Positions 5,407 through 63,844 of a stretch of DNA of 64,000 nt are shown here, in pieces (positions within the stretch are counted from its first letter, which is position 1; each line of letters opens with the position of its first letter). Origin of the DNA: Verrucomicrobium sp. GAS474 (lineage in GTDB: Bacteria; Verrucomicrobiota; Verrucomicrobiia; Methylacidiphilales; GAS474). Position numbers and translations under genes: made by a program. The notes under the pieces were generated by a model. The model was not told where the DNA came from, did not search any database, and saw nothing but the letters and a program-made list of their open reading frames with translations. The stretch lies in assembly GCF_900105685.1 (NCBI RefSeq), contig NZ_LT629781.1, forward strand, positions 2,976,001-3,040,000, given 5' to 3'.

Positions 5407-5742
5407 CTAGGAAAGGAGCTGGATCGCCCGCTGCTGCATCCGGTCGGAGACCTGGAGCGCCTTCACGTTCGCCTCGAAACCCCGCTGGGCGACGAGCGTA
5501 CCGACGAGCTCGGTCGCCGCGTCGACGTTGGAGAACTCGGAAGCCGCCTCGGGATTGAGCGGCGAGCCCGCCCGGCTGATCGAGACCGTCACGCCGGTCC
5601 CGGCGGGCGTCGCCTCGGTGTCGACGGTCCGCGAGGCCTCGAAGCCGGGGGTCGAGATGTTGGCGATGTTGTTCGCCGCGATGTCGGCCCGGGTCTGATT
5701 GGCCTGAAGACCGGTGAGGGAGGTATTGATGCCGGAGCTCAT
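5407..5742 (-). CDS. Short FlgC-like flagellar basal-body rod protein
   Basis: The 111-residue protein has the N-terminal rod motif (SLTGLQANQTRADIAANNIA, then NISTPGF, residues 8-34) and the C-terminal rod domain (NVDAATELVGTLVAQRGFEA, about 72-91, running to the end). These are the coiled-coil ends that stack in the rod; the middle is reduced to about 35 residues, so the protein is slightly shorter than typical FlgC (about 135). No other flagellar structural gene lies in this window. It may be the rod protein of a flagellum encoded elsewhere or a stand-alone paralogue. The ATG at 5742 is the only start that keeps the full N-terminal motif. Confidence 0.85.
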   Translation of the reverse strand: MSSGINTSLTGLQANQTRADIAANNIANISTPGFEASRTVDTEATPAGTGVTVSISRAGSPLNPEAASEFSNVDAATELVGTLVAQRGFEANVKALQVSDRMQQRAIQLLS

Positions 5743-5808: not shown

Positions 5809-7176
5809 TTACTCTATTTTTAATGCAGTACTTTGAGCTAATAAGATTGGTCTTGCCCAATCCGAGAACGCTTTGCCTTTTGAATAAGCAAAATCTTGCA
5901 GCATCTCTTTTTCTACGGTGGTTACCCTTATGGCAATAAGATGCTTGCGAACATGCTCGTTAGATGTTGAAACCTCGTATTTTCTGAAGGCCGATATCGA
6001 TGACGTTAAATGCTCCTCATATCCACTTAAACCTTGAAGACGCAGCTTGATTAACTGGCTTTCCTCTTTAAATGCTTCAATTAAGACTGGACGTGCCCAA
6101 TCTGAAAATGACTTAGCAGCAGCATCAGAAAAACTTCTCATTAGATGCTTTTCCTTTGTAGTCACTCGGATAGCCAAAAGATGACGCCGAATATGAACAC
6201 TAGGCTCTGCACGTTGCTGTATTAAGAGAGTGGAAGCCACTGACTTTATACTTTCCTCACTTCCACGCATCTCCGTAGCTCGTCGCCGAGCCGCCGCGAC
6301 GGCTTTCTGAAGGGAGTCTTCCCAGCCGGCTTCGGCGAGGACATTGCATCCGGCGACCGTCGTCCCGCCCGGGCTCTTCACCTGGTCGGCGAGGGCGATG
6401 GGGGAGAGGTCGGAGGCTCCCACCATCTTCGCCGCGCCGATGGCGGTCTGGACGGCGAGCTGCTTCGCCACGGCGGGGCTCAGCCCCTCGGCGATCCCGC
6501 CCGCGATCAGGGCGTTGAGGAAGTGGTAGACGTAGGCGGGACCGCTCCCGCTGACGGCGGTGACGGCGTCGAGGAGCGGCTCCTCGACCCGGACGGCGGT
6601 GCCGACGGCGGCGAGCAGGGCCTGGGCGACGGCAAGGTCGCCTTCCGTCGCGTGCCGTCCGGGAGCATAACCGGTGATCCCCTCGCCGATCAGGGCCGGG
6701 GTGTTCGGCATCGCCCGGACGATCCGCGTCCCCTCCCCCAGCAGGACTTCGATCCGGTCGGTCGTGATTCCCGCCATGAGGGAGAGGAAGAGGGGCTTCT
6801 CCTCGCGTCCCGCCAACGTCTCCCGCAGCGTCGGCAGGATCTCGGCGGCCTGCGCCGGCTTGATGCCGAGGATGACGACGTCGGACTGGGAGACCAACTC
6901 GAGGTTCGTCTCGCTCGGCGTGACCGAGACGGGACCGGCCGAGCCGAGCGCGTCGAAGAACTGGGTGAGCGTGTTCGCGGTCCGGGCCGTCGCGGTGAGG
7001 GTGCGGAGGAAGGAGGGGTTCGCCTTGGCGATGCCGATCGCCATCGCCCGGGCCATCTTTCCGGCGCCGAGGAAGCCGACGGTCTTGCGTTCATCGCGCG
7101 GATCGAAGCCGTCGAAGGGATCGAATGGATTCAGGTCGTTCACGTCGGCAGGGGATTCGGACGATTCAGGATTCAT
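5809..7176 (-). CDS. proC: Pyrroline-5-carboxylate reductase with C-terminal tandem ribbon-helix-helix-like extension
   Basis: The 455-residue protein is far longer than usual ProC (about 265-280). Residues 32-303 are ProC: Rossmann motif [10 protein letters not shown] (33-42), [16 protein letters not shown] (155-170), [11 protein letters not shown] (209-219), and the family signature [13 protein letters not shown] (264-276). It reduces pyrroline-5-carboxylate to proline with NAD(P)H. Residues 304-455 are foreign to the family. They hold two repeats exactly 80 residues apart, [10 protein letters not shown]...FSDWARPVL (331-365) and [10 protein letters not shown]...FSDWARPIL (411-445), each shaped like a ribbon-helix-helix unit. 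The DNA of this tail is clearly AT-rich against its neighbours, with different codon use, so it was probably acquired. An acidic 31-residue N-terminal extension overlaps the aroK stop by 11 bases. A separate gene starting inside (for example ATG 6270) is possible, but the frame is open throughout. Confidence 0.88.
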
Positions 7177-7711
7177 GGAAGGTGCTTTGGTAAAGGGCGA
7201 GGATCTCGGCCCCGATCGCGTCGGGCTTCCGCTGCTCGGCGTCGATGACGTGATGGGCCTTGCGGTAATCTTCCTCCCGTTTCGCCAGGAGGCAGCGGAG
7301 GGTCGCGATGCGGTCCTCGGCGGCGGCCGTGACGTTGGAAGCCGCCCCCAGCAGGGGCCGGTTCGTCGCCGTCGCGGTGCGGAGGGCGAGCATCTCCGCG
7401 GAGGCGTGGAGATAGAAGACAATGCCCCGGTCGAGGAGGAGGCGGCGGTTCTCCGCGTCGACGAAGAGGCCTCCCCCCGTCGAGAGGACGCCGGGGACCC
7501 GGGCCACCGTCTCCGCGAGGATCGCCCGCTCCAGCTCCCGGAAACCGGCCTCGCCCGATTCCTCGAAGATCGCCGGGATCGTCTTCCCGGCGCGGCGCTC
7601 GATGAGGGCGTCGGTGTCGTAGAACGGCAGCCCCCCGGCGCGGTGGAGCCATTCGGCCACGGTCGATTTGCCGGAGCCCATCATGCCGACGAGGACAAGG
7701 TGCTTGTTCAC
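7166..7711 (-). CDS. aroK: Shikimate kinase
   Basis: The 181-residue protein phosphorylates shikimate at the 3-hydroxyl with ATP. Walker A is GMMGSGKST (9-17). The shikimate-binding Asp lies in [16 protein letters not shown] (30-45), followed by [13 protein letters not shown] and the substrate loop STGGGLF; the lid Arg is in ATNRPLL. It starts with GTG at 7711, which puts the Walker motif at the standard distance. It is divergent from aroC (54 bases between starts), grouping two chorismate-pathway enzymes at one promoter region, and its 3' end overlaps proC by 11 bases, suggesting co-transcription. Confidence 0.95.
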
Positions 7712-63179: not shown

Positions 63180-63259
63180 CGGATTAAAAAAGGGGGGGAA
63201 GCAGGGCCGGAAACGGGAAGGAAGGCTCGGGGGAACAGGGAAAAATCCCCCGAAAATGG

Positions 63260-63342
63260 TGCCGGCGGTCGGACTCGAACCGACACTTACTTGCGTAAAA
63301 CAGATTTTGAGTCTGTCGCGTCTGCCATTTCGCCACGCCGGC
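63260..63342 (-). tRNA. tRNA-Leu (anticodon CAA)
   Basis: On the minus strand the 83-base sequence starts GCCGGCG and ends CGCCGGC plus discriminator A. The anticodon arm is ACAGA-CTCAAAA-TCTGT, giving CAA, and the long variable arm (TTACGCAAGTAA) and T arm (TGTCGG-TTCGAGT-CCGAC) match a class II tRNA. CCA is not encoded. Confidence 0.96.
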
Positions 63343-63448
63343 AAAGGAGAGGGAAGGGCGACTGTATCGGTATGCTTCCCTCTTTCGAGGAAAAAATTGC
63401 TTTTATGAGAAACTAGACTATTAGTTAAACAAAGAGTCGATCCAATAC

Positions 63449-63470
63449 AATCCATGTGGATTCATATTAT
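63449..63470 (+). promoter_or_regulatory. Palindrome and -10-like element ahead of the RHH gene
   Basis: AATCCA-TG-TGGATT (63449-63462) is a perfect palindrome followed at once by TATTAT (63465-63470), one base off the -10 consensus. The surrounding 63343-63514 is AT-rich. Ribbon-helix-helix proteins commonly repress their own promoters through such palindromes. Confidence 0.45.
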
Positions 63471-63514
63471 TTGACTTTTAAAACCTCCCACGTGAACCTT
63501 TAGTTCCTTAACTG

Positions 63515-63844
63515 ATGAAGAAAGAAAAAGCAGGATTCTGGTGTCCCGGAGATGTCGATGACGGCATCCGCACGCTGGTCGAACAGGGCTCCTATCAAGA
63601 TCGTTCCAAGGCGATTGTCGGACTGCTCCGCAAATCGCTCGACGAAAAGAAGAACCTCCCCCGCGACCTTCAAAAGCGGGTCGACGCCCTCGCCTCCTAC
63701 CTTCAGCGTGATGCTGATGTGATTGTTCGTCAATGTGTTGAGGGCATTCTCGAAATGATCGACTCCGGCGAGCCGATGACCCCGCTCATCGTCGAGGAAG
63801 TCCGCCTCCGTCAGGAACGGACCCAAAAACCCGCCAATCGGTAG
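63515..63844 (+). CDS. Orphan ribbon-helix-helix (CopG/ParD-like) protein
   Basis: The 109-residue protein has an N-terminal ParD/CopG-like pattern, AGFWCPGDVDDGIRTLVEQG followed by SYQDRSKAIVGLLRKSL, with the typical G-x-Y-x-x-R-S-x-x-I turn and amphipathic helix. The remaining ~60 residues (DLQKRVDALASYLQRDADVI...) are helical and lie outside the RHH core; their role is unknown. No toxin gene lies next to it, as an antitoxin would require: after the stop there is a terminator and then the start of another gene. It is probably a DNA-binding repressor of itself. Confidence 0.8.
   Translation: MKKEKAGFWCPGDVDDGIRTLVEQGSYQDRSKAIVGLLRKSLDEKKNLPRDLQKRVDALASYLQRDADVIVRQCVEGILEMIDSGEPMTPLIVEEVRLRQERTQKPANR

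Follow-up and report, generated by a model that had tools for sequence, protein, structure and literature searches.

The gene for the proline-synthesis enzyme ProC (pyrroline-5-carboxylate reductase) in Verrucomicrobium sp. GAS474, as found in the 64,000-nucleotide stretch of DNA analysed here ('the window'), continues beyond the point at which the corresponding genes of its relatives end, into an AT-rich extension that encodes two units of probable ribbon-helix-helix (RHH) type. A recent, species-level gene fusion, in which a lateral insertion took away the stop codon of proC and supplied at its 3' end an RHH tail that could contact DNA, is the likely explanation of this arrangement. Enzymes that double as DNA-binding regulators (for example, PutA) must come from domain fusion, and the first step of that process is rarely seen. 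In the present case the distinct composition of the tail, a tail-less genome of the same genus and a stand-alone paralogue of the RHH units all survive, so that the origin of an enzyme-RHH chimera becomes testable. If the tail binds DNA, no earlier ProC would be known to carry a domain for DNA binding, as far as our searches reach; if it does not, the locus offers a clean case of a core enzyme that tolerates a chance fusion at its C-terminus.

The open reading frame (7176..5809, minus strand) runs uninterrupted for 455 residues and is made up of a ProC body (residues 1-303; 6268..7176, minus) followed by a 152-residue tail (residues 304-455; 5812..6267, minus), a division delimited by profile matches, the AlphaFold model and base composition. 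The body matches TIGR00112 over the full length of the model (238 bits against a curated cut-off of 196.75; residues 33-303, model positions 1-263 of 263), its P5CR_dimer match in Pfam (115 bits) reaches residue 303, the SGSGPAYVY and SPGGTT motifs are both present, and residues 31-300 are modelled with a pLDDT that is mostly about 90 or more. An intact ProC body carrying about 150 extra residues had been proposed by a previous, sequence-only reading of the locus, and that description, including its coordinates, is borne out. Because this is the sole ProC found in the host genome, and all of the columns that are invariant among relatives are retained in it, the fused enzyme probably keeps its function and still makes proline.

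On its upstream side, proC overlaps by 11 nucleotides at its start with an aroK-like shikimate kinase gene (7166..7711, minus); downstream lies a flagellar rod/hook-type gene (5407..5742, minus), both of them taken from the open reading frame lists and named by motif recognition. In another genome of the genus (G001:C9; L006:1483-2811, minus), aroK and proC form one fused open reading frame of 442 residues, so that proC has been fused in two distinct ways inside a single genus.

Within the tail, unit 1 (residues 327-371; 6064..6198, minus) and unit 2 (residues 407-451; 5824..5958, minus) begin exactly 80 residues apart and have the AIRVTT and FSDWARP cores in common, just as the sequence-only reading had described. 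Local alignment of the two halves of the tail against each other gives a score of 144, as compared with 24.8 +/- 4.7 for shuffled sequences (n=5000; z = 25.6). With both units taken together, the tail matches the Pfam families NikA-like (PF21983; 32.8 bits) and DUF6290 (31.7 bits) above their shared cut-off of 27 bits in hmmscan, while each unit alone reaches 15.7-18.5 bits against NikA-like, under that cut-off. Profile A2 scores unit 1 at 104 bits (the profile having been partly built from that unit). The AlphaFold model of the tail is of low confidence (pLDDT 56 overall, about 70-83 in the two helices of unit 2) and contains no strand, and a Foldseek search with it returns NikA and TacA2 as the best PDB matches, with MatP, CopASO, ParG and AtaR2 below them; RHH proteins predominate among these matches, none of which is significant (E > 1 throughout). 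Given so poor a model and such insignificant structural matches, it is the sequence profiles that carry the assignment, and the two units are probably RHH-type. The earlier suggestion of RHH units is thus upheld by the profiles, with weak support from the predicted fold. The further ideas of that reading, a complete RHH dimer in one chain and a proline enzyme that binds DNA or is tethered, are conjectural possibilities.

The two units are only 58% identical at the DNA level, which points to an old duplication at the protein level rather than to an assembly duplication or a duplicated read. They share 22 of 44 amino acids, 12 of these 22 being specified by different codons, and have diverged with a dN of 0.46 and a dS of 2.0.

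A stand-alone, single-unit RHH protein is encoded elsewhere in the host genome (G000:C1:372182-372310, GC 66%) and also in a second genome of the genus (G002:C299). Unit 2 is 77% identical to this protein over 44 amino acid residues, and yet identity at third codon positions is only 23% for unit 2 and 18% for unit 1, whereas the two stand-alone genes agree at 68% of such positions. The combination of high protein identity with saturated third positions indicates that the tail was not recently copied from the host gene, and that it evolved for a long time as a selected protein in an AT-rich background; the dN and dS between the two units, taken with this third-position divergence, likewise speak for prolonged purifying selection at the protein level. 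The same third-position identities (18-23%) and the differing GC3 lead us to reject a recent duplication of the stand-alone gene of the host. The stand-alone protein resembles unit 2 but differs from the tail in having a single unit, an N-terminus bearing GRPPKP, a host-like GC content and no fusion partner. Its 44-residue core is identical in two species of the genus (L002:1465-1812, minus, and L034:1375-1656, plus), with a dN of 0.02 and a dS of 0.62, and its gene adjoins that of a LytTR-type response regulator; judged by its sequence, it is a solitary DNA-binding protein, strongly conserved and as yet uncharacterised. Other NikA-like matches in the host genome (L048, L049/L050) are weak, lie in unrelated contexts and were set aside.

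The tail differs sharply in composition from the gene to which it is joined (GC 41% and GC3 33%, versus GC 70% and GC3 89% for the ProC body) and forms the strongest AT-rich patch of the window, which has a GC content of 65%. This foreign-looking composition, like the stand-alone paralogue, had been overlooked by the sequence-only reading, which was otherwise right about the reading frame and its repeats. A second AT-rich patch lies at 63201-63700, where a small CopG/RHH-like open reading frame of 109 amino acids is found (63515-63844, plus). Homology to ProC of the same genus ends at a junction placed at 6255..6270 (minus) by DNA alignment and by the C-termini of 29 relatives. In the G002 genome, ProC is 84% identical and stops at the homologous site, with the flagellar gene following about 95 nucleotides after the stop codon, so that this gene adjoins proC there too; DNA homology to the G002 gene is lost exactly at the junction, where GAG-TTG-AGC-CGG-TAA in G002 is replaced by GAG-ATG-CGT-GGA-AGT in the window and the frame stays open. 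When the tail was sought in related ProCs it proved to be absent, all 29 of those checked ending at the homologous site, within five residues of the junction, and the fusion is seen in a single genome among those scanned. What follows proC varies within the genus: G001 carries a thioredoxin-like gene (L006:1025-1486, minus) between proC and the flagellar gene, G002 has its spacer of about 95 nucleotides, and in the window genome the AT-rich tail takes up this position.

From these observations, the simplest account of the tail's origin, as read from sequence, is a lateral insertion. In the host lineage, proC would have received at its 3' end a piece of AT-rich DNA encoding a protein with two RHH units in tandem, of the NikA/RelB-antitoxin type. 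The inserted sequence would be related to, rather than copied from, the stand-alone RHH protein of the genus, and the insertion would have removed the native stop codon to leave an in-frame fusion. Since no donor was found, the argument for lateral origin is one of composition and distribution: a search of plasmids, phages, IMG/VR and GTDB contigs returned nothing beyond the stand-alone gene of G002 and a single weak match, on a plasmid, to the stand-alone protein, and no close relative of the tail outside the genus was present in 388 genomes of the phylum, 286 of the class and 62 of the order (overlapping samples). A mobile element was considered and rejected, as there is no second DNA-level copy of the tail in the host genome and a lone 10-nucleotide inverted repeat (5741-5750/6213-6222) is, by a rough estimate, within what chance would give in a region of such size. 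No separate promoter for the tail was found, nor any RNA element at the locus in Rfam.

The same junction might instead have been created by an assembly artefact, in which a single-base indel near 6200-6267 links a proC that ends a few codons past its normal site to an AT-rich, tandem-RHH gene lying just downstream. Each of the two other frames reaches a stop codon no more than about 15 codons from the junction (..RCVEVRKV* and ..GDAWK*) and would give a normal-looking ProC, so a single indel at that point would yield two ordinary genes. The assembly, moreover, is a single contig of what appears to be the long-read type, with residual indels: its ends (G000:C1:1-12536 and 3744596-3757135; L060, L061) share a 12.5-kb overlap in which the two copies differ by 16 indels and no mismatch. 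However, all 16 of those indels fall in the first 3.1 kb, the remaining 9.4 kb being free of differences, which suggests that errors are gathered at a poorly supported end and that the interior is seemingly accurate; in addition, the junction contains no run of more than three identical bases, the long open reading frames of the window look intact, and the native stop codon of the relatives is itself absent at the window junction. An artefact, though a main rival to a genuine fusion, seems unlikely. (Past the 12.5-kb overlap the contig ends diverge, as would be the case for a terminal duplication, or for a circular overlap that was left untrimmed and has many errors at one end.)

If the fusion is real, it might nevertheless be accidental and functionally silent, with a tail that is tolerated, has neither an RHH fold nor DNA binding, and is heading for decay. 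Its occurrence in a single genome (as a consequence of which no conservation demonstrates usefulness), its unameliorated and hence recent composition and the low-confidence fold prediction are all compatible with such an outcome, but neither unit has lost residues of its RHH core, and the tail has as yet acquired no stop or frameshift; we regard a silent fusion as a minor possibility. At the opposite extreme, the protein might be a dedicated regulator-enzyme, the biosynthetic counterpart of PutA, in which the proline or P5C state would govern repression of proC, or of the aroC/aroK-proC region, by the RHH tail. The PutA-like architecture (PMC5293562) and a host genome without PutA or proline dehydrogenase would suit that role; against it, the fusion is not conserved, the tail arrived recently, and no operator was found between aroK and aroC (a search there and beside the stand-alone genes for an operator-like inverted repeat gave nothing convincing). 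So established a regulatory role is very improbable.

A lateral insertion that furnished an RHH tail able to contact DNA remains our preferred reading. DNA binding by RHH domains takes place in pairs. The two units of the tail most likely adopt the RHH fold and could pair either within one chain or between the chains of a ProC oligomer; so paired, they could contact DNA, and the result would be an enzyme-RHH chimera, PutA-like in outline. DNA binding by the fused ProC is plausible on these grounds. That the laterally gained module acts as a single-chain RHH unit and already binds DNA in response to the proline or P5C state, which would make this ProC an independently evolved mirror image of PutA on the biosynthetic side, observed just as it arises, is a good deal more doubtful, and we hold it to be improbable.

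Two known proteins offer precedents for such a chimera. PutA demonstrates that an RHH domain on a proline enzyme can make a DNA-binding autorepressor, and grafting an RHH domain onto an enzyme transfers both dimerisation and DNA binding (PMC5293562); F TraY is a monomer in which a whole RHH dimer fold is contained in one polypeptide (PMC12117103). No description of a ProC-RHH fusion was found in the literature searched, in agreement with the sequence-only reading, which knew of no ProC with such a tail but had missed PutA as a close functional analogue.

Each unit of the tail shows sequence similarity to NikA-like proteins (PF21983), RelB-type antitoxins (NF046040) and MbpA. The tail nevertheless misses the NCBIfam cut-offs for a type II RelB-type antitoxin (36.4 bits versus 50) and for the mobilization protein MbpA (17.2 bits versus 90), and its neighbours are proC and the flagellar gene, with no toxin or relaxase gene adjoining; neither identification was retained. 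With trifunctional PutA (type C proline utilization A; PMC5293562) the fused protein has in common a proline-metabolism enzyme and an RHH domain on the same chain, but PutA degrades proline by means of PRODH and P5CDH domains and bears one N-terminal RHH domain, whereas in the present protein a ProC reductase is followed by two units at the C-terminus; this placement, together with the lack of any proline dehydrogenase/PutA domain (PF01619) in the host genome, excludes its classification as a trifunctional PutA. With F plasmid TraY (PMC12117103) it shares the presence of two RHH-type motifs in a single polypeptide, but TraY is a free relaxosome protein, while the tail is fused to an enzyme, has no relaxosome genes visible beside it and has a single-chain fold that is putative. 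A proline enzyme with an RHH domain is already known from PutA, and a chain with two such motifs from F TraY; the ProC-RHH chimera, seen in one genome, is a further form of the enzyme-plus-RHH arrangement.
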